From contig JAIVFI010000028.1 in NCBI GenBank assembly GCA_025558095.1, positions 372,001 through 436,000 on the forward strand: a DNA stretch of 64,000 nucleotides, read 5' to 3'. Made by a program: the position numbers and the translations under genes. Positions 1,362-48,861 of this stretch are shown here, in pieces; position 1 is the first letter of the stretch, and every line of letters begins with the position of its first letter. The stretch comes from Hyaloraphidium curvatum (lineage: Eukaryota; Monoblepharomycota; Hyaloraphidiomycetes; Hyaloraphidiales; Hyaloraphidiaceae). The notes below the pieces were generated by a model, which worked only from the letters and a program-made list of their open reading frames with translations, was not told where the DNA came from and searched no databases.

Positions 1362-4300
1362 TCATCGTTCCCTGGACAATGCCTGCAACAGGCTCTTTGA
1401 CTGCGGCCTCCCGTTTCTCCTGTCGTCCTTCGCGACGCGCGTCTCCACAGAGGCTCCGGACCCTCTGGAAATCGCTTCCGCGCCGGGCTGTGAATCCGAG
1501 GATTTGCCGACGGTGAAGGTCCGTCCCTTGCCTCCCAAGCGGTCGTTTGTGTCCGCTTTCGCAAACTTGGACAGAGCACCGGGGCTTCTGTTCAGCAGCG
1601 AACGACTGTTCTGGATGCTATGCTGGCGACGTTTCTTTACCGCGAACCACGGCTTAGATTCCCCCTAACATGCAGTGAGAAGGAAGGAACACACCGTGGC
1701 GGAGTCCGGATGAAGGCGATCTCTGCCTTTCCGGGGTGTTTTGCGCGATCGATCGAGGATCTCGAATGCGCCCTCCTCGTCAGAAGATGCATCCTTGCGA
1801 GGTGACGCGGGACGTATTGCCAGTGACGGACGAGTGTCCACTGCTGTCGCATCCTGCGAAGCAATGCATGAGGTCACGTCAGCAGTCCCGAAAGGTCATC
1901 CAAGCACGTACCTCTTCCTTCGTCTCTCCATCTTCGTCCTCGTCAAAAAGACGCCATTGAGGGCGCTTCTTTTTCCTGGTTTTCTCGGCGTCCGATCCCG
2001 AAGAACGCGGGGCGTCCATGTCGACGTCCAGGTCCGACTCAAGTGAATTTCTGTCCGCATCCGTGCGTCGAATGCGTTTTGTTCCGTGATTGCGAGATCT
2101 TTCCGAAACGGTGTCAGCCTCCGAGCTTGCATCTTCGTCGCTGCGCTCCATGTCGTCCTCCTCGTACTGATCGTCGTCCTCGCTCTGGTGCGCGGAATCG
2201 GTCGACACAACGCCAACGGCGTCCGACTTTCTTTCTTCCCAATCCAGGAAGCCGCTTTTGTCGGCGGTATCCCCAAGAAAGGCCTTTCCGAAGGCGGCCG
2301 TCTCTGGGTTCGAAGCTGATGCGCTCGTCAGGGGCGGTCCTGGCGGATCAACGTGCATGCCTTACCCAGCTTCTCGACAACAGACATGTCGTCGCCGCGC
2401 TTCCTCTTCCCCGGACCGTATCTGCGCTGCAGGTCGTTGGCAAGGCGTATAGCCTTCAGGAGCTCGAGATCCTCGTCTTCCGAGTCATCGTCGAGGTAGC
2501 GCCCGTCGAGCCCAGTCCGTCCGCGCTTGCGCAGGTTGCCAGAAGTAACGTCCTTGAGAAGCTGGTTCACTTCCTCCTGATCCTTGGCCGCGAGCTCGGC
2601 CCGGTGCTGGCGTAGGATAGCATCCAACTCTTCCGGCGCGTGGTCTTCCGCATCCTTCCCCGTAGCGATCAAATCCGCCAGGTCCTTTCCGTCATCGTCA
2701 TCCGAGTCCTCGCCGTCCGGGCCTCCGAGCCCCTGGAATTCGTCCTCCTCCTCCTCAGCCTCATTCAGGACGAACATAGACTTGTTCTTCTTCGACTTAG
2801 GCTTGACGATCACCTCGTCATCGTCGTCTCCCGCAGCTTGCGTATCGCTTATGGGAGCTTCCGAAGCTGGACCGCTCGGAGATGCAATGCTGGATTCGCC
2901 TTCGTTGGGCTCCGAAGGGGCGTCCTCGCCAGCATCCGCGTCCGCATCCGCATCCGATCCTTCGCTCTCGCCGCTGCTTTCTTCGCCAGTTTCTTCTGCG
3001 GAGCCTTCCGAAAGGCCTTCCTCATCCTGCGAGTCCACGTCGGCACCGGACCCGCCGTCAGATGCAGCGTCCTCATCTCCCCCGTCATCGCGATCGCTGC
3101 GGTCTTCGGCAAACATGTCCGTTTCAGAGCCCGGCTCCCCAGATTTGCCGCTTTTGTGCAGTGTTGCAGCCGGCTTAACCGGATCTGCGGCCTTCGGGCC
3201 GGCAAAGAAGGACCTGATGTCATTGCCCTTCTTGCCCAGTGCCCTCGCGGCTTCCAGCTTGGCCTTTTCCCGCTGTGCTGCCTTGGCCTTGAGCTCCTTC
3301 GCCGTCTCCCGTTTGGTGTCCAAGCGTGCGTTCAAGTCCGAAACAACGGCAGGCTGCGCGAGGTAGTCGAGGTCCGCGTACGCAGGAGGAACGACAGCGT
3401 CTGGCGGTTGCACGGGATCCACCGGCAGAGAATCTTCCGCAGAGTACGACAGCTCTATGTGAATGGGTGCTGCAGAGTCTTGCGATTCGGCGCTTTTCGG
3501 CACCAAGCCGGGCCGTGTGACGATGGTAAGCTGTAACGGATACGAATGCAGTCACACCCAGACCGCCCGAAACAACGAATGGGCTTACTTCGGGTCTGTC
3601 TTTTGCTGCTCCGCTGTAGCCTTTTTGCTGGATGGCAGGCGAGTCCATCTGGCTCTCTTGGAAGAGCTGGCTGAAGCCCACTTTATGCCGCGGATCGACG
3701 CCACGGGGCGGCGCCGCAGAGGCGCCAACATCTGTCGGCACCTGCGAGTCAGCGAACAGCTGACTGAAGCCAACTTTATGTCTCGAGTCAATGGCGCCTG
3801 CTGGCGGGGCAGAATTGGCGGGAAGCGATGCTTGCGAATCTTTGAAAAGCTGGCTGAAGCCGATGACATGGCCAGGATCGACCCCGGCTGGCGAAAGGCC
3901 CCCGATCGACGCTTGAGAGTCCGCAAAGAGTTGGCTGAAGCCAATCTTGTGTTGGGGATCCACCTGCATAGATGATCCCTCCTGCACGACCTCGGCGGCC
4001 TTTGGCGAAAGAGCTCGTCAGCAACGGGAGGCATATGAGCGACGCAAGACTCACCGCAGGGCTGCGATCGGTCATTCCTTCATCATCCCCGCTCCCGTCG
4101 GAATCGAGTCCGGGGAAAGGATAGAGGAGGCTGTTGGATTCAGGGGGTGGCTGATAAGCGGCTTGCAAGACCTTGGAAGACATGCTGGCAGGGAATCCCG
4201 CGCGGCGAAACGGATCGGTGTCTTCTTCCGAGTCTGAGGCTGGCTGCACGCGATCCGCGGCGGGCTTGGCAAGTTCCGGGGATGCCACAAGGATGGATGC

Positions 4301-6239
4301 AACCCGAGATGGCGATCGAGCAGTACGCGCAGGCGAAGGCCGCCCGGAGTCCGCCCGAACGGTACGGACGGGCGACGCAGACGCCGCCCTACGTTTGCGA
4401 TGCAACTTGCGCTTGCCACGCCGCTCCGACTCGGGCAGACCAGCGTTGACAATGTCCTCGTCCCCGCTGTCCAGGTCGGAATCCCGCTTTTCCGACTGAG
4501 CGTCACCTTCTCCCTTCTCTGGTGGTGTTTCTGCGGCTGGCTCCGCCCCCTGTGCAGGCCTCTGCCCCTTCTTCCCGCTCTTCATCCCCAGTCTGTCGTC
4601 CGCCTTTTCCTGGGCACGCTTTGCCGCAAGGACCTGCTCCTTCTGCTTCTTGTACTGTTCCTTCTGGCGCAGAGCGTGGAGTTCGGCCTGCTTGGCGAGC
4701 TCGGCATTCCTCTTCGCCTTCAGGGAGCTGACAGCATCCACGCGCTTTGCCGCTGGGCGGGAAGCCGGAGCTCGAGGTCTTGCGGGAAGCGGATCGTCGT
4801 CGTCGAGCTCAATGACGGCCGCTTTTGCTAGTGCCGGCTTGTGTGGCATCGGCACGACGCCTCCAGGTCCATCGGTTCCCGACTTGACGCCGTCAGCAAG
4901 ATCGTCGACGGTTGGTGCGCCATTCGAGGGGGCTGACTCGACGGCGGGCGCTGCTTGTCTAAGCAAGGGACCGTTTAGCCCGTAGTCCGCATCGCGCAAT
5001 GTCCTTCAAGGGCTCACTTGTCTTTCGGTTTCCCTGCACCGAAACGGCTGAGAAAGTCCCTCATGTTGAGCTGCCTTGCAACAGTCATCTCCAGGCTGAC
5101 CACGCCGGTGCGCTTCAGCCTGTCGGACTCGCGGTGGAGCTCCTTGAGCTCTTTTTGGTTCAGTTTCTGGGAACAGCACAGATGAGCAGAGACGGGCGGC
5201 AGGGAAAACGACTGCGCACCTTGAGCCTGCGATGCTTCCCCTTCCTGGCACCATCATCCGAGCCTGATCCTGCATCTGCATCCGAAGCGGAGCCCGCCTT
5301 GCCCTCGCCTCCTTCGCCGGGGACCTGCGAATCGTCGGGGATCTCCGGGATGGGGGCATCATCCTCCAGGCCCATGGCCTCGCGCTTCCGGCGGTCGTTC
5401 TCCGCATCCCTCCGGATCTCTTCCTCGAGCTCTTCCTGGTCGGAGAAGTGGAGCTCCAGGTCCATGTTGGGGTCGAGGGGCTGGCTGGGCATCATCTGGC
5501 TCGAGCCGAGGTCTGCTTCCGGATCGGCGGGAGGGTTCTCGTCCTTGGGAGAACCGGCGTCACCCGCGTCCGATTCGGAGGGCAAGGCCGCGGGAAGGGC
5601 CTTCTTGATCGCAACCGGGGAGGCCTCCGAGGAGGAAGATCCGAGAATGCGCTTCCGCCGTTTCTTCTTCCCCTTCGACGACGCGTCCTTTGCGGCTGCG
5701 CTCGACTCCGACTCTGCCGAGGCGTCGTCAGCCTGTTCCTTCGGGGACGGCGATTTCATCTTGGGCGACCGGCGCTTGCGGTCCACCTCTGGGCTTTCAG
5801 AGGGGGAGCTCATCGAGGGCGGCTTTGGTACGCGGGCTGGCGACGGATCCGCGGGTCTGGCCTCCGTTTCCGACGGCATGGTATCGTCCACGTCCATTCG
5901 GTCCATTCGGACTGGGGGTCCGGGGGCGGTCGGGCTGTCGTGGGGCGACGGACCGTTGTTCTCGGCCGGTTCGCTCAAAGCGTCCTCGGAGCCGTCTGCG
6001 GCGGATCTCGGCGCGTCTCCGTCCAGCAGATCGAGCAGCGAGTCTGCCGACACGTCGTGCAGCGCGGCATCTGCGCGGACGCGCGTCGGGGGCTCGCGGG
6101 CGGCGGGCGGTTCCTCGGGCCGGCCTCCCTCGCCGCGTGCGGGCTCGCGCTTGCGCCCGTACGTTTTGGCGGACCGCTTGGCCGCGACGGGATCGCCGGG
6201 CACTTCAGCCGCGTCGCCGTGCGGGTCAACCGTCAGCAT
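1362..6239 (-). CDS. MRC1: Mrc1/claspin replication-checkpoint mediator
   Basis: Travels with the replisome and transmits replication stress to the checkpoint kinase. Eight exons on the minus strand: 6239-5220, 5166-5018, 4958-4055, 3999-3589, 3530-2366, 2315-1912, 1853-1695 and 1652-1362. They sum to 4503 nt (1500 aa) with consistent phase. The protein is mostly acidic, Ser-rich and disordered. Residues about 1075-1240 carry the MRC1-like domain: an acidic E-EEDEF-GLGG start, then a segment like DVTSGNLRKRGR, and a conserved block after it. Exon 4 holds four copies of a GFSQLF-x-(D/E)SQ repeat, supplying SQ sites of the kind ATR-family kinases phosphorylate. The last intron is short (42 nt). 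The start ATG at 6239 is the first good one after the shared promoter. The MRC1 domain makes the family call strong; the exact 3' exon is inferred. Confidence 0.88.
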
Positions 6240-6383
6240 TGTGGACGGGCGCGACTTGATTCGGGCTTGATTTGAACGAGCTGGGGTCAACGGCTCGAGT
6301 GCGATCGGCCTATAAAATCGCAAACCAATTCGGGACAACCGTCCCGCACCGGTCACTCGTCAAACACCTGCTCGGAGCGAAAG
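6240..6383. promoter_or_regulatory. Short bidirectional promoter between Mrc1 and the MDC1-like gene
   Basis: Only 144 bp separate the two divergent start codons. On the plus strand a TATAAAA lies at 6311-6317, about 70 bp before the MDC1-like ATG, followed by a CCAAT at about 6325. No equivalent TATA box is evident toward Mrc1. Promoter role is inferred from position. Confidence 0.6.
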
Positions 6384-9300
6384 ATGCCCGCGAAAGCGGC
6401 GCCGGAAGCCCCGTCGGACAGCGAGGAAAGTGTCGCGAGCCTTGCATCGGCCCGCGAGCAGCCGTACGACGACCCCGCCCCGCGCACCGAGCCCCGCACG
6501 GCGTCGGCGGGCCCGTCCCCCAATGCCTCGGCAAGCCGCAGCTCGGCCCCACGCGGCGCACCCACGCAGCACGCCTCCGGGGCCACCTTTCCGGCGTCGG
6601 CAAAGCGCGGCCCCGTCGTCGCCAGGCTGCACATCTTCGGCCCCGAGCGGACCGAGGTCGTCAACATACACCCGGGAATCACCGTTCTCGGGAGGACGGA
6701 CGGGCCTGCGCAGATCTCCCTTCCCGGCGACTGCGTGTCGATGAACCACGCCAAGCTAGGTGGGTCCCGCCCGCCGTGCGGCCCGCCGGACCACTGACTC
6801 CAGTTTTCATATTAGACGTCTCCCGCAACGGGCTGTACCACTTCATCACGGACACGTCGTCCAACGGCACCTGGTTTTCGCGCTTCCTCAAGGGCAGGGA
6901 GATCACGACGAGGCTCCTGCATTCGAGCAAGGACGACCAGGGCACGCAGTACAAGTACCAGATCTTTGACGGCGAGAACCTCAAGTTCGCCAACGTGGCC
7001 ACGCGCTACGAGATCCTGGAGCCGTGGAGGTCGAGCATGGGCGTTGGCCTGCTCTACGCCGCGGAGGAAGAGGAGGACGTCATGGTAGGGCCCGAGCGCA
7101 CCAAGGGTCGAGATCTGGGTTTCCTCACGCTCTCTGTCCAGCAGACCGCTCCGCTTTCCGCCACGAAGCTCGTCGATGACTCGCAGGAAGGCCGCGCTGC
7201 CCCTCCGGCGCAGCAGCGGAACTCCGTCGGAGCCAGCGCCGGCGCGAAGCTCGGGAGCGTGCAAGTGCCCGACAGCATCGTCGGCAGGCACGAGGCCGAC
7301 TCGGTCGAACACGCTGCGGGGTCCAACCCCGTGGTGTACCTCGCTGGGGAAGAGGAAGTCGACGCCGACCTGCTGGCCGAGGACCGCCGCGACGCGTCGC
7401 CCGTGCACAGCTCGAGCGAGATTGCTCTACCCAACGGCGGCTCGCTCGAAAATCCCGGCTCGCTCGAAAACGTCGGCGGGGTTGCTCCTAGCGTCGATGG
7501 TGCCGCTCCCATGGATGTCGAGCAGGAGGATCCCCTCCCCTCCAGCCAGCCGCACGACCAGGACCTGTCGCCGCCGGGCGCGCAATCCGCACTTGACCCT
7601 GAGCTGGTGCAGATCCAGGCCGGACCCCAGCAGGAGGCGCCAGAGGCGTTTCCCTCCATGGTGCCCGCGGAGAAGAACGCTCTCGAGCGCATGTTCGAGG
7701 ACGATGCCCCTTCGGACCAGCCCGCTGAGCAGCCGATCGCAAGCCCGCCCGAGGAGTCACACAGGGTGGCAGCGGCGGATGAGCGGGCCGCTGCGAGCGA
7801 TGCTGTGGGGCAGGGCAAGCAGCCCGCTGCGCAAAACCGCGAGGCGCCCATGGACTTGGCCGAAGAGGTCGATGCCGCGCTTCCCCCCGAGTCTTTTCCG
7901 CCTTCGTCGCCGCCCAAAGCTACCCGCAAGCAGAAGAAGAAAAAGACAGTGGTCGAGTCCTCCGACGATGAGCCGCCGGCTGCGCAGGCCAAGGAAGCGC
8001 CTATGGAGATTGTCGAGGAGCATGCCGCGGCACTTCAGCCGATCGAATCGCCCCCCTCGTCGCCTCCGAGGCAGACTCGCAAGCCGAAGAAGAAGGCAAC
8101 GGCATCGGAGGCAAAGACCGAGCGCAAGGGCGGGAAGGCCAGGGTACCCGCCGGCGCAGATGCTGAAGGCGAGGTCGACGAGATCACGGCCCCTGCCACG
8201 GAATCGGGACCCTCGAGGGCTGTTTCGGAGGAACCTGCCGAAGGCGTGGCCCCAGTAGTCAAGGGCAAATCCGTGCAGAAGAGCAGCGCCAAGGGCAAGA
8301 AGGTTGCGGAGATTCCGCGGGTGGAGGCGCCCGACCTGAGCTCGGAACAAGACGAGCTGAGCGCGGCGATACCCGCGCCGCTCGTGCGACCGCTCGGAGT
8401 CAAGACCGGAGCTGCCGAGCCCGTCAACGCCGCGGAGCCGCGGTCGGATGCTTCCGACGAGCTCGACTTTGGCAAGAAGCGCAAGAACGCGAGACCGTCG
8501 ACCACCTATGCGGGAAAGCAGAAGCAGAGGACGTCCCCGCGCAAGCCAGCAAAGGGAAGGAGCACCGAAGCGCAGGCAGCGGCCACGAGTGTCGGCAGCA
8601 GCAGCCCTGTGCACGACGAACCGCCACTGGCGGGCGACAAGGCCGAGAAGCCAGCTAAGCGGTGAGCGGAATCCCGCCGTGCCGATGTTTTCCGCTGATG
8701 TCGTGTTCCAGGCTCAAGAAGGCCGCTGCAGCCGAGCCCTCGCCGGCCAAACCAAAGGATGAGAACGTGGTGGTCGCTCCGAACCTGGAAGGGCGGTCGC
8801 TTCCCAAGGTCATGTTCACCGGCATCGAGGACGGCGGGCAGCCCAAGGTCGTGGACGATCTGGGCGGCGAGGTCGTCGAGAGCTGGCGCGAGTGCACGCA
8901 CGTGGTGACGGAAAGCAAGGTCAAGCGCACGGTCAAGTTCCTCTGCGCGCTCGCGACGGGCAAGCAGATCGTGAGCACCTCGTGGCTCGAAGCGTGCAAG
9001 CGTGCCAGCACCTTTGTCGGTGGGTGGCAGTGGTTGAAGCGATCTGGGTTGGTGTGACTCAGCGCAACGTTCCTCTCTACCGTAGACGAGTCCAAGTTTG
9101 TCATTCGCGACAAGGATGCGGAGAAGAAGTGGGGCTTTTCGCTCATCGACTCGATCAAGATGGCGAGGAACAGCCGCGTCCTCGCCGGCAAGTCCTTCTA
9201 CGTCACGGCGCACAACTTGGCGCTGAAGCTCACGGATCTCAAGGAAATCATCGAAGCTGCCGGCGGCAAGGTGATTGCCCGTTCTCTCGTTGCGTGAACC

Positions 9301-30690: not shown

Positions 30691-32010
30691 TAGAAATCCT
30701 GCCGGGACGCGTACAATAGAGCCTCCTCCACGGCACTGGGCATGGGATTGCGCCCAGCCTGGATTTCCGCCCAGGCGTCGGCGTTCATTGCCAACGCCAG
30801 AGCGACCTCCGCGTCGAACTCCTCGTCCAGCGCTTCCTGAACCGTCACAGCCAATTCGTCGTTGTTATCCTCATCGTCCTCGTCCGTGATGGGCCGGACA
30901 GCGTCCCCGGAATCGTCGTCGTCGCTCTCGAGCTCGTTGTCGATGACCATCTGCGCGGTCCGGAAAGAGCGACTGCGAGGCTCCGGAGGCACCGGGGATG
31001 CCTCCTCTTCCTCGTCCTCGTCGACGTGAATGACCATGGTCGCGTCCTGGCGGCGGTATTTGTCCTCCTCCTTCTCAGCATGGATGACAAGCTTCTCCCA
31101 CGCGGCGGCGTCCACCAGAGCAAACCCCTCCTCCAGAAGGACCTTGACGTCAGTGAACTTGCGCGAATCGTTGTTCTCAGCAACGTGGTTCTTTGCACGG
31201 GCCCATGCAAGCTCGATGGGGTTGAGTTTGGGGTGATATGGGGGGAGGAAGTGGAGGTAGATGTCGAACTCTAGCGCCAGCTTGTCAATGAAGCGTTCCG
31301 GCTGGTATCCGAGCTCCTGTAGCAGCTTGCGAAGCTCCTTGACGGAAAAGCCGCCTCCGGCCTTCGTTTTGCGCGCCGTGAGCTGCTCCATTGTGTACCA
31401 AGTGGTGCCCATGTCCACAATAGTCTTGGCGAGATCTGCCTTCTTGGTCAGCTGCGAAATGCGTTTCTGACCATCCACAGGTGCAATATGATACGCAGCG
31501 TTGTCCATGTGAACGTGGATCTCCCCTTCCAGGTTCTTTTCGCGCATCTTTTTGAATGCACCCCTCGCCCACTCCTCAAAGTGCCTCGCATTCATGGATC
31601 CGTGGTAGTCTGCCAGCTTGTGATCACCCTGGAACACTTTGGGAGGCTCGAGCCATCCGTATCTCGATCCGCAGCCGATGATGCACCACCGCTTTCCGTA
31701 CCCGTCCGGGTGGGGAAGTTCGTCGCCGGGACGATACCAGGTGAAGTTGCTGACGTGATTCTGATGAACGTACGATTCATCGAGCCAGTACTGGGGTGCA
31801 GATTCAGCAGGAGCTCAGAACAGCATGGAGGGGGGGACTTACCGAGATGACTTTCTTGTCCGACTCCTTCTCCACCTTTCTGATCCGATACCGCTCTCGC
31901 AGGTACTCATACCGCCGCGCATGGATGTTTGGAGTCATGACAACGACCTTGGCGAAGATCGTAGGACAGCGGTTCTCCAGGCTTCCTGTTGAGATCTGCC
32001 GGGATTCCAA
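30690..32010 (-). CDS. Tc1/mariner-superfamily DDE transposase, probably 5' incomplete
   Basis: Cut-and-paste transposase. Exon 31790-30690 follows a 52-nt intron (31791-31842) from an exon that ends KVEKESDKKVIS. The acidic triad is present: YWLDESYVHQNH, VHMDNAAYH and HPKLNPIELAWARAK. Between the second Asp and the Glu lie about 96 residues, far more than the usual 34, because of an inserted helical segment. A 69-residue acidic tail ends the protein. The frame opens at about 32010 on a TTG, so its true start lies elsewhere, perhaps in the overlapping zinc-knuckle frame upstream. A one-base shift near 31958 would fuse the two. Whether it is active is unclear. Confidence 0.75.
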
Positions 32011-40022: not shown

Positions 40023-40256
40023 GGCGGACGGCGATGGGCGGCGCAGGGGTCGAGGGACGCTCGGGCCACCCCACGTCAGGGCAGTCGGTCAGGCAAGGGG
40101 TTGCGGGTACCGGCCGGGTGGGGCGCTAGTTTCACACACAGGTCCCGAGCTTGCCGGAGTCGCCGCGTGCGAATTTGCAACCGCTAGAGCACAGTCTCCA
40201 TCGCAAAAGGCGCGTGGTGCCTCCTGCGTCGCATCGGGGAACGGCACGGCCAAAAC
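40023..40256. other. Gap between the F-box gene and the transposase-Fanzor gene; expected left end of the element
   Basis: 234 bp with no ORF of note. It must hold the promoter of both divergent genes, and, if 40257-48629 is a transposon, its left terminus. I could not find a convincing terminal inverted repeat with 48630-48861. Confidence 0.4.
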
Positions 40257-41340
40257 ATGCTTCTGAGCGGGCCAGAAACCGCGGTTCGGCTCAAGCAGAC
40301 CGGCAAGCTTGGCCCGGACGAGATTGCTGCTGTACTCGCAATTCACCGAACGACGTATTTCCGTTGGATCCGCCGATGTGGGGCTCAGACCGTTCCGGAC
40401 CATCCCCGCAAGGCCTTCCGCAAGGTGTCCGAGGAAATGGTCCGGCACGTAGTTGACGAGGCCAAAGCTCGCGTCCGCGTGACGCAAAGGGAGCTCGCTG
40501 CTGACCTGGCGGAAAAGTTTGGCGTTTTGGTGTCGCAGCAGCATATCTCGCGGCTGCTGAAGGCCAACAGGGTCACGAGGAAGAAGCTCACCATTAAGAG
40601 CGCCGAAGCCCTGAAACAACCCGAGCGGCACCGCATGTTCCACGAGAGGGTCACTTCCTTTGATTTGGGGCGCCTAGGTGCCTTGGACGAGTCCTCATTC
40701 CAACTCAACGATCCGGGGCGCTTCGGCTACTCGGAGAAGGGGACTCCCGCCGTCGTATACCTGCCAGGGAACCGGGGCCCCAAGGTGACCCTTTGCCTCG
40801 CCATCTCACCCACTTCGCGACCCGGTAATCACACTGGAAACGTGATCTCGTACCAGATCTACAGCGGCAACATGAACACCGAGAGGTTCTGTGCTTTTCT
40901 CAAGACTATTCGCGCCGGGGCTTGTGGGTCCGAGTCCCTGGGCGTTATCCTGGACAATGCGGGTTTCCACGGCTCTCCTCTGCGGGCAAGGAAGACCACG
41001 GACGGCACGGCAATAATAAAGAACCTCTCGGGCAAGTCGTTCCTTGCGGTCCAGGCCGTAGCAAAGGCCAACAATCTGAGCCTCATCTACCTGCGACCGA
41101 GATCGCCGGAATTTAACCCGACCGAGTACGTGTTTGCCACGATCAAGAACCTCGTGAGGCGGGACTGCCCCAGGACGGTGCCGGATCTCGTCCGGTCCAT
41201 CGAGAGGGCCATTCAAATCGTCGGCCACGGCGATCTGATGGCGACGTTCCGGCACTGCTTGAAGCTAAGCGAGGCTGAGTTTGTGCGCATCGCGGAATCC
41301 GCGTCCGCCGGCAAATGTGTGGCGCGGAAGGTCACACTAC
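40257..41340 (+). mobile_element. Transposase domain of the Fanzor-bearing element
   Basis: Catalytic codons: Asp 40686-40688, Asp 40953-40955, Glu 41124-41126. All three acidic residues are intact, with 56 residues between the last two rather than about 34. Upstream HTH segments (LKQTGKLGPDEIAAVLAIHR and VTQRELAADLAEKFGVLVS) would bind the element ends. The ORF carries no stop or frameshift, so the insertion looks recent. Confidence 0.85.
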
Positions 41341-44300
41341 AAGGTCAGATCTCTGCCTTTGCTTCTCCGGCTCCTCAGACGTGCCCTTCCGCGATGGAGG
41401 GCGCAGCAGCGACCCAGACCGAAGCAAACGCGGCCGAGCGGCTCGCTGAAGAGGTGGACTGCCATGACGGTTGCGCATCGGGCATGCAGACCGCGCTGAC
41501 TCACGACAACGCCCACTCCGAGCAGGCTCGCAACCTCGGCGTCGCCCACATCAACCCGCACCAAAAGCACACTTTGCTGACCCTGAGGGAAGTTCTCCAC
41601 GTCGATGGTTCGGCGAGGGAATTCTTTGGGCCGTGGAACGACTTCACGGACTCCGCTCAAAGGACCGCGGGCTTCGACGCTGCGGACGTCCTCGGGGGCC
41701 TCTCCAACCTCGGTGAAGCTCCTTTTGAGTTCATCTGTCAGCGGGTGGCATCGGGTCGGGGGTACAAGCTGGAGCGCGAGCTTTTCGTCGCGCGCCTCCG
41801 GAACATCGTCGCCCGGCGGCGCCGGGTCGCCCCCAGTCTGATCGGACCAGACGCACCGGCACCTCCCTTTTTCCGCCCCGCGGACGATGGCGCGGATCTG
41901 GGACCGCCGTCAGCCCCCGACGTCTCCATCTCCCAGCTGGATAACCTCGCCCGCTATGCCGACGTCCCACCGGAACTTAACGTCTCGTTCAAGAAAGCCA
42001 GCCGCGCCGCGTTGAAACAGCTGTTTCCGCTCTCAGCCCTTGCAAACGACACCGTGCTGGACGAGAGGTTCGCCATCCTCCTATCGGGCCTTGTACGAAA
42101 CGGTCGTGGACCAGAATGGCTACGTGCGCTCGCTGTTTCTCTCTGGGGACAGCTCGGCCCGGCCGGGAGGGCACGCATGGACAGCTTCGAAACATCCGAG
42201 ACAGCACGTCGTGCTCTGCATTATGTTCACCAGCCCATTTCGAAGGTCTGTCGGTTGGAGTACCTCGAACGCGCGGCTTCGACCGAGTCTTTGCCAAGGA
42301 ACCTTAGGCAGATACTGGAGGAAGCGTGCCGCACGCTGAAGGACCAGCAGGGCCGCTCGCTTTTTGATGCGTCGCCCGGCCTGGAGTACTTCCTTGCTTC
42401 GCTCTCCCTCCCGCAGCGATGCAAGATAGTCATGGCGGCGCGTTTGCCGGATAGTGTGGCGAGTCGCAATGCGGAAGGGCGCAAGAGATTCTTCGATTGG
42501 GCGGTGTGGAACCCGATGGCGGCCAACGAGGAGGCCCTCGCCATCGAGAATCCGGGTTCCGTTCCCGTGCTGGTGTGCAATCTCCTGTCGAGCAGCCCCG
42601 CAATCCCAAACTGATTTTTGCCCCGGCAGCTGCTTTCGTTCCCGGGCCTTTTCCAGATGAGCCCGGGCGTACCTGGACTGGATGCAGAGGGCGATAAGCT
42701 GCTGGCAACCCTGTTCCTGAAGGCGGAGCAGCTCGGGTGGGAACACTCTTCCATGGTGACGCTGCGGCTGCTGGAGTCGGGGCCCAAGATGCGCGATTTT
42801 ACCCTGGACTTGTGCGGTATGCCCGCGCTGGTGCGCGGTAGCAACCCCGAAGCACGGCAGGAGGCCGCGCGCACCGCGCTCGACGCCAAGCTCCACTTCC
42901 TCGCGGAATCCGTTGGACTGCTGGACTTCGGCCGTATCCAGAAGCGGGATTGTCCGCTCTGTTCCTTCAGTGTGCAGGTGGAAGGCGAAGTCCCGGCGAA
43001 GGCTGGGCGGCGGCGCAAGGTCGCGGCGTCGGGGATGGTGGCTGACGGAGCTGCGCGGGAGCGTGTCTATGACGCCGAGCTTCGGCTCCTCCACCACGTC
43101 AAGGGTGCGCACCTCACCTGCAGAGCGTGCCCGGGGAAGGGACATCAGTTCGACCTCGAGAGTGAGTTCCGGCAGCATGTCGAGGAGAACCACCGTGGGG
43201 CGTGAGTTGCACCGCGCTTTCCATGCATGCCTGGGACCGATGCGAAGCTGACCGCCGCCGCGGACAGTTTGGTCGCCCCAAGGAATCTCACCACGTCGTT
43301 CGGCCAGTTCATTGCCAACGCACACTACATTGTCCCGTTCGCGTCGACAAACCTCAAAGCCAACATTCCTACGGGCCTCGGCGGCTCGTCCTGCCCTTTC
43401 TGTTTCGCCGGTGGCGGGAGGCACCGGCAGGAGTGCTCTCCGAAGCGGCGGTGGGTCGCGCTCAACGGCTTCCTCGCACTTGGCGACCCCCAGCACGAGC
43501 GATACAAGACGATGACGGAGCTGGCCGTCGAGTGGTTCCCGGCGGCCGAGGTGTGCCACCCATGGGCGCGGGGCCCGTACGAGCAAGTCGGGCCCCTCAT
43601 CACCAAGGCCTGCACCCTCGCCGCCATCTTGTTCAAGATCATCTGGACCAAGATCTTGTTGCAGATCCACAACAAAGAGCTCCCGGACCAAGACGGATCC
43701 GTCACGCAGGACATGCTCGCCAGCTTTCCCCCGTCTTACGTCGCAAAGATTGCCATCCACGCCGTGCTTGGTGCCGGCCAGATGTCCGCCGCTGTTGGAA
43801 CCCGCCGCGCGGGAAAGCAGAAGTCGGCCGGGCTCGGTGCTGGGGCGAGATACTCGGGCCATTCGTGTGCGCCAGGAGTGGAGCAGCTTGTGGACGGCGG
43901 TCCGGACCTCGGAGCCAACGACGACGATCGAGACGAGGTGCTCGAGGACGTTGACTTCGAGGACGATGACGACGCGATGGCCGAGGACCAGGCCGGCGCC
44001 AAGATCTTGGCCGACTTCTTGCACGGCGAGCTGGATCAGATTGAGGACGAGGACTTGGTTACGGCTGAGGACACCCCCGATCTCTCGCAGGTTGCTGATC
44101 AGGGCGCACCGTCCGTTCTCACCGTCGCGGAGCACAACGCAGCGGCAAAGCTTGTCCGCAAGGCGGCCGTTGCTGCGTTTGCAGAGGCGCGGGAACTTGT
44201 GGGCGAGACGTACGAAAAGCTCAGGCCGCTTTTCGTGCAGGGACCTTTGCTCCGCTATGCCGAGCAGGTCGCTTTCAACCGAGCTCGAAGCGTGCCGCAG

Positions 44301-47300
44301 CGGCTGCTGACTGCGCTCAAGGTTCTCATCCGTCGCTTCCTACGCGGGGAGGTGAACGCGGGCGTCGGCCGGAGGCGGATTGGCCCAATCCTCAGCTACG
44401 CTCTGGCAAAGCTCGGATATGGGGACGACGACTTCTCCAATTTCCCGTTCGAAAGCGCATTTGGCTGTGGTCTTGCCGAGGCCACGGAGCTCAGGGTCGG
44501 GCTGGGGAGGCTTTTCCGGCCGTTCAGAGGCTTGCAGCTGAACCGGATCGTTGACCTCCGGGATTCAAAACAGAAGCCGCCGGTGCCGGCAACCGTTTCG
44601 CAGCGGAGGGTTATCGCTCGGGTCCTGCAGGACAAGCAGGCGGGCAACCCCGTGGCGGCCGCGGTGCGAACCGTGAACCTGCCGAAGGGCAAGCCGCGCG
44701 GAAAGGTCGACGCGGAAACGGAGGCGGTGCGCAGCTACCTCCAGAACATTTGGGAGACGCTGCCGCGGGCCTCACCTGCGGAGAAGGCTGACTTGCGAAA
44801 GGTGGAGCTGCAGGAGCTGAGGGACTGGGTGGTTGCAAACCGTCTACAGCTTCGGAGCATCCCCTTCCGCTACCCGGCCGTGACCACGGCAACGATTCGG
44901 TCGACAGAGCAGAAACCCAAGTTCTGGGTCCCCGAGCACGCCGAGGACATGAACGAGGCGGCGGCGGCGGCATTGGTGGGGCAGAACCGGCCCCACTGGG
45001 AAAGCGAGAAGCTTCTGGTGGCGCGGATGAGCGAGTATGACCTCGACAAGTGTCGTTCATCCACGAACCCCGCGGACGAAGCCTTCGGCTTCCAGATGTG
45101 CTTCATCGCCCTGCACGAGCTCGAAAAGCAGGACGAGGCGCTGAAGAAGAGGGCCGCGTCCGCGGCTGCTGCACTGCCGGGACCTGGAACGGCGCGGAGG
45201 ACGAGCACCGCCAGGGACCCCGATTCAACCCCAACTTTCCCAACCATTTCAACTGCTCCGGTCAAGGACAGGGAGGCTTCGAACAAGACCAGGAGGGCCC
45301 GCAACACGTGGCGGCCGCACCGCGTCGAGAAGCGGCATTACAGCAAGAATGGCTCCCCGAAGCGATGGCACGGGTTCGTCGTGAGCTTCCGTAAGCGCCG
45401 ACCGCAGCCGGGGCCCGAGGGACTCGCCAAGAAGGAGACCATGGAGACGAAGCGGCGGGAGCGCAAGGCGGCCGCCGCCGCCGCGATGGCGGGGCTTGGC
45501 GCCGCCCAGACCGGCAAGGAAAAGGCAGCCTCGTGGGCGCGGCGGAAGCTTCGGGCTGCGGTCGCCGAAATCAGCTTGTCCCCCGTGACCGTCTACATCT
45601 CGGCCTCGGATCTGCCCGAGTTTTTGTCCAAGCTGGGCGTGGAGGTCGCGCCTGGCATCGACACCTCGCGCGTTGACTCGGACTACCTATTCGGCCACCT
45701 GCTCAACGGCGGCAACCAACTCGTCAACGAGGACCGGCTCTTCCGCCTCCGTCAGCAGGGCAAAGTCTCGGCAAGGGGCCATGCCGCCGCCACGCAGCCC
45801 ATCTATCGTCGCACCGCGGACGTTCTGAGGTACTCCGGCGTCCGGGGCATCTATCATTGCGGCAGCACCCTGGGCATTCTTAACGAAGAAGTCTCCTTCG
45901 TGGAAAAGGTCTCGTTCCAGCAGTCGCAGCAGCAGGAGCGGCAAAACACGACACAGGACGTCGAGCCGCCAAAGCGCGCAGCGCATTCGCCAGCAGCCGC
46001 GCCGGCTCCTCCTGTTCAAACTCGGCCCACCGTCTCCGTTCCCGCCGCAGCTCATGTGCCCGCCGGTCTTGCTGCTTTCGAAGTGGATGTTTCGTTCCCT
46101 CGCGATGTTCCGATGGATCCCTACCCGCCGCTCTACACCGGTCCATGGCTGCCAAACGGCGATCCGGACCCGCCGTGCGACATGGCTGTCTTCGATGGTG
46201 GGCATTTTGCTCAGTGACGCACGGGTTCGGAGGCTGATCGGATCCTCACTTTTCCAGGCCAGAATCGGATTTGGCATGGGGGCATGGTCTACTACCTGCA
46301 GGCGACGGCCCAAGGGGACGAATCGGTCCCGATGGATTGGGAGCCCTCTTATTGTGCCAGCAGCAACCTTAACTTCACCACCATGCCTTCCGAGCCTCCG
46401 GCGGACTGCGGCATCCCCGCCGCGGTCCCGCCGGAACCCCCGCCCTTTTTCTCCTTCGTCGAACCACCAGCCTCGACTTCTCTCCCTGCCTCCATTCCCC
46501 CGGAACCGCCCCCGCATTGGGTGCACGACCCGTGCTCGTGCTGTCAAGATGCCGCCTGCAAGGCCGTGGACTGTGCGCCCAAGGTGTTCGCGCCCCTGAG
46601 CTCGGGGCACAACGACCCTCCCTGCGCGACTGTCTCGCCCGGTGACTCGGTGCCCGAGACTTCTGTGCATCCATGCGCGGCCCTTCCTTTCCCCGACTTC
46701 TCGCCGCCACTTCCTTCCCCCTTCCTTTCTTGCTTCCCTCCCGAAGTCGTCGTTTGCGCGGTCGAACCGTCGCCGCCGACGGTAACGGTCGAGGGCAAGT
46801 TCGCTGCCCCCGTACCTCCTCAGCTGGCCCCGACCCCGGTTCCGCTCCCGCCGCGTTCTGCCGAGCCGTTGCCGCGGCCCCCGGTCGACTTCAAGACTGG
46901 CATTCCCGTCTACTACCTCAGCCGCCCTGACCATGTGTCCGTGCTGGCACCCAATCTCCTGCACATGCCGACGCAGGCGGAAATGTTCGAGCGGGCCGAG
47001 CGCGGCGAGCCAGTGGAGGGCGGGGTCGTCGACGTGGATCCGAATCGCTGGTTTCTGGCTGTTGCCAACCGCCGCGTCGACGTGCGGCTCGTTGCCAAGA
47101 GCCTGAACCCCGGGCCGAACGGACGCTACGACTTCGCCAACAGTCATCTGCCGGGGACAACGGAGCGCATCACCGTGACCAATGCCGACGGCACCAAGTC
47201 GCACTACGTGCCGAAGCGGGCGAACCCGTCCAAGGCCGACGGTTCCGTCAGCTTCGGGAGGATCGTCGGCTTCCACCTAGAGCACTCCTGCTCCGATACT

Positions 47301-48629
47301 AAGCGGATCGCAAGGTCTTTCGGTCCGTCGCCGCCTGCCGCTGGAGCGTGCAGACACCACCCGCTCTGGGAGCCCAAGATCTCGGAGTTCAAGCCGCCGG
47401 CGCCCGATTCGCGCCCCAACGACGCTGCAAAGGCGGAGAAGCACGCTCGGCGCAACGTCGAACTGTTCCCGACCCCTGGCGGCTGCACGGACGAGTTTGG
47501 TGCCAAGCTGTGGGGCGAGGTCGCTGGTGCCGGCCGTGCGGGGACCCCGGCGCTGCCGGAGCTCATCCTCGGTGTTCCGGCCAAGCTCGACCGCCGCCTG
47601 TGCGGCTACGACAAGGCGGCCGCGCGTCTGAATGCCACCAAGCGGACCACCATGCTGGACGTCAACGATTGCGAGGGCAACCCTGTGCAGAAGTCTCTCC
47701 ACGATTTCGAGCGCGACCTGCCCTCTCAACGCACGACAAACAGTGCAGCCTTCTCGGACTACACGAGGGCGCTGCTGCCACAACTCGACCGCATCCTGGA
47801 CGTCTACTGTTCCGGAGAACGGAGGTGGGCAAGCCAATCCCTGTGGCAACGACTTCGCTCACGCATCCTGCAGCCTGGATCGTGTGCGCACGATTCGCCG
47901 GCGCCGCGAGGTCCTCAGCTGGATCTGTCGCGACATGTGTCGCAACCCGTATTCGGGCAAGTACGATCCACAGACGACCATCGCATACGGCGCCGCGCGA
48001 TTCGGCCATGCGAGCAAGGGCGGCCCGGCCTCCCGGATCGTTCGCTTCAGGGCGGAGCTGGCCAAGGCCGGGATCATGGTCTTGGTCAACGAGTACCTCA
48101 CGTCCCAGATGTGCAGCTGGTGCGGCAGCCGCCGTGATCATCCGACTCGCCTGACGTCCTTTCCAGCTGCAAGACCACCTATGTCGTCGGAATCCGGAAC
48201 CCCGGCTCCAAGGGCGAGGTGCGCGGGGTGAAATACTGTCCCCTCTGCCGCCGCTTCTGGATGCGCGACGTGAACAGTGTGCACTCCATGGAGCACCTCT
48301 TCTGGTTCGGCCTCATCACCGGAGGGGAGCGCCCCTGGCCGTTCAGGCCGGACACCAGGAAGCCGAAGCCGCAGCCCAAGCTCCGAGCTGGGACTGGTGC
48401 AGCGCCGCGCAAGTCCGCGGGTGAGCGCGCTCGCATTCGCGACGGTCATCCCGAGCGTCATCCCGAGCTGATCCGGGAGCTCCAGGTGCCGCCACAGGCC
48501 GCAAGCGTACGGCCGCAAGCGCCGCGAATGGGTCGGTCAAGAAGCTCAAGCCGGCAAGCTGACCTGGCCGCGGAAACAGTTACAAGTTGGCGTGCCATGC
48601 ACCGCGTGGGCGCCATTGCATTTGCTTGA
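40257..48629 (+). CDS. DDE transposase joined in frame to a Fanzor (TnpB-like) RuvC nuclease
   Basis: Six exons: 40257-42572, 42630-43201, 43268-46197, 46258-47824, 47874-48119 and 48167-48629. They total 8094 nt, 2697 aa, with every junction in phase. Residues 1-360 are an IS630/Tc1-type transposase: two helix-turn-helix regions, then LDESSFQ, VILDNAGFH and SPEFNPTEYVF, the DDE triad. No stop separates this from the rest. The middle (residues about 380-2100) is unrecognised; it contains zinc-finger-like Cys/His clusters (CPLCSF, HVKGAHLTCRACPGKGH, CPFCFAGG), an acidic stretch and a Pro-rich stretch. The C-terminal core is Fanzor: RuvC-I VDVDPNRWF, RuvC-II MVLVNEYLTSQMC, zinc ligands in CSCC and KYCPLC, and RuvC-III RDVNSVHSM. 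Fanzors are RNA-guided DNA nucleases carried by eukaryotic transposons. Two separate proteins from one locus remain possible. Confidence 0.8.
46900..48320 (+). mobile_element. Fanzor RuvC nuclease core
   Basis: Catalytic codons: RuvC-I Asp at 47037-47039, RuvC-II Glu at 48091-48093, RuvC-III Asp at 48267-48269. Zinc ligands flank the last intron: MC-S then CC after splicing 48120-48166, and CPLC at about 48240-48251. This order (RuvC-I, RuvC-II, zinc finger, RuvC-III) and the EY-TS, YGAARFG and RDVNS signatures identify Fanzor rather than other RuvC families. Confidence 0.88.
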
Positions 48630-48861
48630 TCGAGGTGGAGTCCGTCAGGGACCGCCTTTTATTCGCAGGCTCGATGATGAACATTGCTGCTAGGCCGCAA
48701 AGGATTGCGGCACAGGGGGAACAGTAGCAGTTTCTGAGAGTGTAGCTAGCGATGGCCAAATAGCGCGCCGGGGGCCCAAACAACGCATCGGAACCAAAGC
48801 ATCGGGACCCGGTCTCCCGCCGCGAGCTCTAGAGACCGTAAAGGTCTCCTCGCCGGCGCCG
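48630..48861. other. Downstream flank of Fanzor; expected guide-RNA region and right end
   Basis: 232 bp with no ORF. In known TnpB and Fanzor loci the guide RNA is made from the 3' part of the gene through to the element end, so this is where it would be sought. I see moderate self-complementarity but no decisive fold. Confidence 0.4.

Follow-up and report, generated by a model that had tools for sequence, protein, structure and literature searches.

The locus described here raises the question whether a DDE transposase and a Fanzor-type RuvC nuclease can be encoded as one protein. It lies in the window, the 64-kb stretch of Hyaloraphidium curvatum DNA that was analysed as a whole, and the original prediction had joined both enzymes through five splices into a single stop-free frame of 2,697 residues. 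A six-frame reading combined with splice candidates reproduced this frame exactly: read without splicing, the frame opened by the ATG at 40257 stops at a TGA (42612-42614), and with five introns spliced out it runs to the TGA at 48627-48629 with zero internal stops (Table 1). A strict scan for donor, branch point and acceptor returned 27 candidates on the plus strand and 15 on the minus strand of the window, and 12-21 candidates on five random sequences. It recovered four of the five predicted introns exactly, the missed one (47825-47873) being without YTRAY. On the minus strand, opposite exons 1-3, lies an open frame of 739 codons (42120-44339) that is probably a GC-rich shadow frame.

Table 1 Predicted gene structure, element boundaries and right-end stem-loop of the window copy. 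Positions are those of the window; families A, B and C are described in the text.
Feature	Position	Strand	Remarks
Whole family A element, 8,622 bp	40127..48748	+	TAG-TTTCACACACAG to GAGAGTG-TAGCTA; boundaries from 8/10 copies with differing flanks
Left terminal inverted repeat TAGTTTCACACACAG	40127..40141	+	
Exon 1: HTH and IS630/mariner DDE transposase (aa 1-345), linker, domain X (aa ~400-772)	40257..42572	+	DDE_3, NCBIfam IS630
Intron 1	42573..42629	+	57 nt, phase 0; in-frame TGA 42612-42614 inside CTGAT branch-point-like motif
Exon 2	42630..43201	+	C2H2-like Cys/His cluster CRACPGKGHQ...HVEENH; 38% identity to B
Intron 2	43202..43267	+	66 nt, phase 2; GTGAGT donor
Exon 3	43268..46197	+	~977 aa conserved protein, acidic stretch, proline-rich end; 35-37% identity to B
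Intron 3	46198..46257	+	60 nt, phase 1; column common to B
Exon 4: proline-rich linker and first half of Fanzor-type RuvC	46258..47824	+	D2200 at 47037-47039; DPNR invariant in A, B and C
Intron 4	47825..47873	+	49 nt, phase 2; CTCAC where YTRAY expected; column common to B
Exon 5: RuvC-II part, E2535 (NEYLTS, 48091-48093), first zinc-finger cysteine C2542	47874..48119	+	aa 2461-2610 75% identical to B
Intron 5	48120..48166	+	47 nt, phase 2; column common to B
Exon 6: second half of C4 zinc finger, RuvC-III RDVNS (D2578, 48267-48269), basic tail	48167..48629	+	stop 48627-48629
Conserved stem-loop followed by T run	48624..48660	+	37 nt, 92% identity A vs B; overlaps A stop codon
Right terminal inverted repeat TAGCTACACTCTCAG (minus-strand reading)	48734..48748	-	

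The frame starts with the DDE transposase that had been expected. Exon 1 matches Pfam DDE_3 (56 bits, cut-off 28.6, E=5.3e-15) and the NCBIfam IS630 transposase family (123 bits, cut-off 100). The triad D144 (40686), D233 (40953) and E290 (41124) is invariant in the family to which the window copy belongs (A), in a second family of the same genome (B) and in the ENA protein P0001. The latter is the one relative found among 8,000 scored candidates for exon 1; it is 43% identical over 50% of the exon-1 query, and its cluster represents 68 member sequences. The N-terminus is assigned to the IS630/mariner transposases. When exon 1 was modelled from its sequence alone, no usable fold resulted (mean pLDDT 35.9), and no transposase relative was confirmed among 45 pattern matches examined in viral contigs. 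A second, different DDE_3 transposase is present in the window at 31152-31790 (minus strand) in a 374-aa frame, with relatives in 371-aa frames on contigs C21, C22, C28 and C41.

For the C-terminus, a Fanzor RuvC core had been claimed. Its catalytic triad and C4 zinc finger were borne out, and a full-length Fanzor match was not obtained. Families A, B and a third, distant family (C) all keep D2200, E2535, D2578 and four zinc-finger cysteines unchanged, and both triads are retained, as predicted. The aspartate D2200 sits within VDVDPNRWF, which corrects the earlier reading. The score of the C-terminus rises from 20.0 bits in one unspliced frame to 26.4 bits when introns 4 and 5 are removed, which supports splicing there; the latter value is barely over the cut-off of 26.3 for the Cas12f1-like_TNB zinc finger, for which C scores 32.4 bits. 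In A a glutamate stands directly before [TS][TS] (NEYLTS), which we take to be the place of the repositioned glutamate of Fanzors. A PDB chain named ‘TnpB-like protein L79’ reads NVNEYLTT there; it was matched weakly (E=0.33) with another Fanzor-like gene of the genome as query. That the glutamate is repositioned in Fanzors and their bacterial ancestors is described in the accessible part of PMC10711439. The spacing from D to TS is 337 in A and 324 in B, outside the D-X(125,275)-[TS][TS] given in the accessible part of PMC3627910. E2535 is also invariant in a Fanzor1-like gene elsewhere in the genome (L045, C5:335900-337900, minus strand), which comprises two frames and shows the more typical motifs GLDVGTRFWLAG, VDEYLSSQRCPRC and FHRDELSG; the genome search gave no match of the family A transposase within 80 kb of it.

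Database searches point to a high degree of divergence of this domain. The RuvC region of A alone gave no PDB match at E<=1, and the RuvC profile matched a chain named LaTranC weakly (E=0.0018). In the protein database, no relatives of the RuvC profile were found among the best 8,000 word-sharing candidates of 5.8 billion proteins and none of the full-length fusion among 7,995 scored candidates, and none of 61 pattern matches examined in viral contigs was confirmed as a RuvC relative. With PHROGs and PADLOC, A was matched weakly (best E 0.14 and 0.057); C was matched to TnpB/Cas12f zinc fingers (best E 8.8e-5 and 4.9e-7). Since no full-length Fanzor homology was found, we use the name ‘Fanzor-type’ and not ‘a Fanzor1’. 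Motifs, zinc-finger domain and RuvC residues identify the C-terminus as a putative, very divergent Fanzor-type RuvC.

The frame is the main gene of a mobile unit that exceeds the span originally noted. The terminal inverted repeats are imperfect, with 11/15 bases in agreement (manual count), and the window copy is flanked by a 2-bp duplication (GC/GC at 40125-40126 and 48749-48750). Seven of eight A copies examined show such duplications at one fixed offset (GC, AT, TG, CC, AC, TG and CC), the eighth (L025) having CA/GT and no matching 2-bp duplication; the left ends of the remaining two are rearranged or truncated. By eye, three of the five B copies fit a 2-bp duplication. The B copies L037 and L038 have a left tip without the first base and no clean 2-bp duplication. 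As the duplications are 2 bp long but differ from the TA duplication of IS630/Tc1-mariner elements, we call family A mariner-like for its transposase and do not regard it as a standard member.

Other copies with the same architecture were found in the genome (31.9 Mb in 55 contigs; all match counts are lower bounds). The transposase gave at least 34 matches, including 10 of family A, as an 8.6-kb unit, and 5 of family B. The RuvC part gave at least 17 matches, which fall on these 10 A and 5 B places and, twice, on C2; the middle region gave at least 16, all at those 15 places. Neither solo RuvC nor solo right-end copies of A were found in this genome search, with counts as lower bounds. Eight of the nine other A copies are 99.58-99.92% identical to the window copy over the unit, one of them without the left ~150 bp, and the ninth is split into two aligned parts (99.55 and 99.73%) by a 171-bp deletion; B copies are 99.75-99.98% identical to the B query copy. 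Family A copies moved recently. Copies with a stop between the two parts had been named as evidence against a fusion. Aligned to the window copy, 7/10 A copies (window copy included) carry no coding indel or stop, and the damaged ones have a 1-nt deletion, an in-frame 171-nt deletion, or a truncation with a stop; 4/5 B copies are intact and the fifth has a 1-nt insertion. Distinct coding differences among A copies comprise 42 non-synonymous and 22 synonymous changes, that is 66% compared to 73% expected without selection, which indicates that the copies are too young to reveal much selection. The corresponding numbers among B copies are 7 and 8.

Selection becomes apparent when A is compared to B. 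Family B has the same layout, with 35-75% protein identity to A in 10 of 11 segments, and its hand-built gene model comprises 7 introns and 2,623 aa. All five A introns recur in B with phases 0, 2, 1, 2 and 2, four of them at identical alignment columns and intron 2 at a position within three gapped columns. Identical residues on the two sides of introns 1 to 5 number 14/30 and 9/30, 11/28 and 13/27, 14/26 and 6/27, 9/30 and 24/30, and 24/30 and 20/30, the downstream side of intron 3 thus being weakly conserved. In a translated search of a B copy with the A protein, exon 1, which is one uninterrupted exon in both families, gave one unbroken match of 44-45% identity, and the further matches were collinear from the first residue through the end of RuvC; the linker at aa 346-400 is poorly conserved (29% identity). 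Compared at codon positions 1/2/3, A and B show identities of 0.69/0.81/0.47 for the transposase and 0.49/0.56/0.37 for domain X. Exon 2 and three segments of the middle range over 0.51-0.56/0.53-0.59/0.37-0.44, the proline-rich stretch has 0.51/0.57/0.33, and the two RuvC segments have 0.57/0.64/0.40 and 0.82/0.81/0.53. In each of the nine long segments the third position has the lowest identity, and in eight of them the second position has the highest, the exception being the second RuvC segment; the linker (51 codons, 0.49/0.47/0.31) and the tail (22 codons, 0.45/0.50/0.45) are too short for judging this pattern. Such a pattern indicates that purifying selection has acted over the long term along the fused frame. 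The original prediction had offered ‘selection or recent arrival’ for the intact triads, and both apply, the former between the families and the latter among the A copies.

Family C (locus L044, C2:397444-407443) shows the same order of parts and has the first two introns in common with A. The transposase is frame-shifted in the one copy read. Downstream, a spliced frame beginning at domain X stays open for 2,542 codons, up to where the piece read ends; its introns 1 and 2 have the phases found in A, and intron 2 again follows the Cys/His cluster. When A/B profiles were compared to C, the RuvC region reached a probability of 99.85%, and domain X (1.3%), exon 2 (5.7%, E=0.0066, at the Cys/His cluster) and exon 3 (2.7%) gave weak local matches. 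Homology of the middle with C rests for this reason on order, introns and the Cys/His cluster. The middle region of C (oriented 4011-8132) also contains the sequence KGDCLFESV, which resembles an OTU cysteine protease motif (Pfam E=0.03, below cut-off). Four more-distant transposase relatives, on C3, C13, C15 and C23, are each followed, 15.6-22.6 kb downstream, by a RuvC-III/zinc-finger match in the same orientation and are probably larger elements with the same left/right order; families A, B and C apart, six such RuvC places were found, and these relatives account for four of them.

We consider it about two-thirds probable that the elements are cut-and-paste transposons of an IS630/mariner-like type in which the main gene specifies a single protein of ~2,700 residues, composed of an HTH and DDE transposase, a conserved middle of ~1,800 residues and a Fanzor-type RuvC nuclease. 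Sequence comparison supports this reading: the spliced frame is continuous and conserved in two families, a third family has its parts in the same order, the catalytic residues are retained, and the elements have moved recently. The predicted single frame is thereby backed by 10 A copies, 5 B copies, the five introns common to A and B, and family C.

The alternatives turn largely on intron 1, whose place and phase 0 are common to A (57 nt), B (59 nt) and C (59 nt). An in-frame stop follows 13 codons past the donor in all three families (spacing by eye), and its TGA lies within CTGAT, CTGAC or TTGAT, 18-20 nt before the GCAG acceptor. YTRAY occurs near the acceptor in 10/12 introns of A and B, with A intron 4 and one of the seven B introns as exceptions, and in 3/3 introns found in C (by eye). 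The fixed spacing of the TGA can be attributed to the stop being part of a branch-point-like motif. Past intron 1, the first methionine of exon 2 comes at residue 10 in A, residue 55 in B and residue 43 in C (the last counted by hand), and the homology of A and B extends upstream of the A methionine, back to the acceptor (LLSFPGLFQ / PLTFYEIFQ). As it reaches back that far, the acceptor was set at 42629, replacing an intron 1 that ended at 42656. It may be speculated that intron 1 is alternatively spliced, with retention giving a 785-aa transposase and splicing the fusion; intron retention in the P element is the model for this. The 13 codons between donor and stop (42573-42611) can be aligned as protein between A and B, with ~60% nucleotide identity (manual count), but those of C are unrelated, and constraint on a short intron could account for the resemblance. 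We regard such alternative splicing as rather unlikely, and it would be compatible with the one-protein reading.

Less probable still is a polyprotein, in which one chain would be translated and later cut into transposase, middle protein or proteins and nuclease. The great length, the weakly conserved linker, a proline-rich stretch at ~aa 1831-2150 (by eye) and the weak OTU-protease match in C would fit this explanation. Against it, no 2A motif was found in A, B or the part of C read, and the A exons and the scanned part of B yielded no protease family at E<=1. The ~1,800 aa between the two enzymes contain no recognised Pfam domain; for exon 3, neither A nor the scanned part of B matched a Pfam family at E<=1.

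The two activities of the single protein might work together by means of the right end of the element. A 16-nt core, GATCGAGGTGGAGTCC, is present without mismatch at 15/15 right ends of A and B and is otherwise absent from the genome; with one mismatch allowed it occurs at three other places, and the reversed control pattern at none. A 40-nt stretch at this place folds into a GC-rich hairpin (-13.1 kcal/mol in both A and B), and Rfam scans gave no match for this RNA candidate, nor did a tRNA scan. The hairpin could be a candidate guide (omega) RNA scaffold or a terminator. We tentatively propose, at somewhat below even odds, a natural single-chain transposase and RNA-guided nuclease in which excision by the DDE part would be coupled to RuvC cutting of the emptied site, with the hairpin as scaffold and the element’s own flank as guide; the layout would be old and would have diverged into three families in one genome. 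The DDE part would bind the terminal repeats, excise the element and insert it elsewhere with a 2-bp duplication. The RuvC part would use an RNA made at the right end, its guide extending into the flank, and would cut the emptied donor site, where repair would restore or copy the element. The fusion would thus keep the cutter at the site of excision. It is doubtful, and less probable than a polyprotein, that the RuvC part is instead a targeting or DNA-binding module that chooses insertion sites, loosely like CRISPR-associated transposons: the physical connection to the transposase and the engineered dCas9-mariner fusion, which targets insertion according to the accessible part of PMC6735945, would agree with this, but every RuvC catalytic residue is kept and, by eye, no motif is common to 13 insertion flanks.

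Least probable among the alternatives are two genes, a 785-aa protein of transposase and domain X ending at TGA 42612 and a separate middle and Fanzor protein from ATG 42657: the frame does stop there, the codons before the stop align between A and B, A has a methionine early in exon 2, and Fanzors of mariner elements are separate proteins in the accessible part of PMC3627910, but the branch-point-like motif at a fixed distance from donor and acceptor explains the place of the stop in all three families, B and C have no methionine at the A position, homology between A and B runs upstream of it, and donor, acceptor and phase are common to A, B and C. With the stop in this motif and no conserved start beyond it, two separate genes appear unlikely, and the conserved stop was dropped as a proof of them.

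The single protein with two putative catalytic domains can be compared to several known systems. IS630 and Tc1-mariner transposases are normally ~350 aa long and have a TA target. They have the HTH and DDE parts in common with the protein described here, which scores above the NCBIfam IS630 cut-off, whereas here ~2,350 further residues are joined and the 2-bp duplication is variable. The Fanzor1 Tc/mariner elements PGv-1 and PUl-1 (Bao and Jurka 2013, PMC3627910) likewise combine a mariner-type transposase with a Fanzor in one element and show the D...[TS][TS]xxC4...RD motif. According to the accessible part of that paper, their two proteins are distinct and TA is duplicated, in contrast to the one spliced frame, the non-TA 2-bp duplications, the ~1,800-aa middle and the longer D-to-TS spacing found here. 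SpuFz1 (Saito 2023, PMC10432273) resembles our element in a RuvC with zinc finger near the right end of the transposon and a conserved right-end sequence, but as far as the accessible text goes its locus of ~2.1 kb consists of one ORF and has no transposase between the repeats, whereas the nuclease here is a C-terminal domain. In the accessible parts of PMC3627910, PMC10711439 and PMC10432273, Fanzors associated with mariner and other transposases are distinct proteins. The words ‘fusion’ and ‘fused’ are absent from PMC3627910 and PMC10432273, ‘fused’ refers to expression tags in the accessible passages of PMC10711439, and PMC11423790 contains none of the terms searched for. Among the openly accessible papers, a search by title and start of abstract found no natural transposase-Fanzor fusion.

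The role of RNA-guided cutting by Fanzors remains unknown according to the accessible part of PMC10432273. A covalent fusion, conserved as it is in two families or more, would tie both activities to one job and thus make this role directly testable, as either triad can be inactivated within one protein. If true, the fusion would also offer a naturally evolved model for tools of RNA-guided insertion such as the man-made dCas9-mariner (PMC6735945, accessible part), and a natural counterpart of transposase-nuclease fusions that are built deliberately in laboratories. As in the engineered dCas9-Hsmar1 fusion, a mariner transposase would be covalently joined to a Cas-type or RuvC protein, RNA guidance being a candidate property here. 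According to the accessible part of PMC6735945, that fusion is man-made and contains a catalytically dead Cas9, whereas the predicted fusion described here is natural and retains its catalytic residues.
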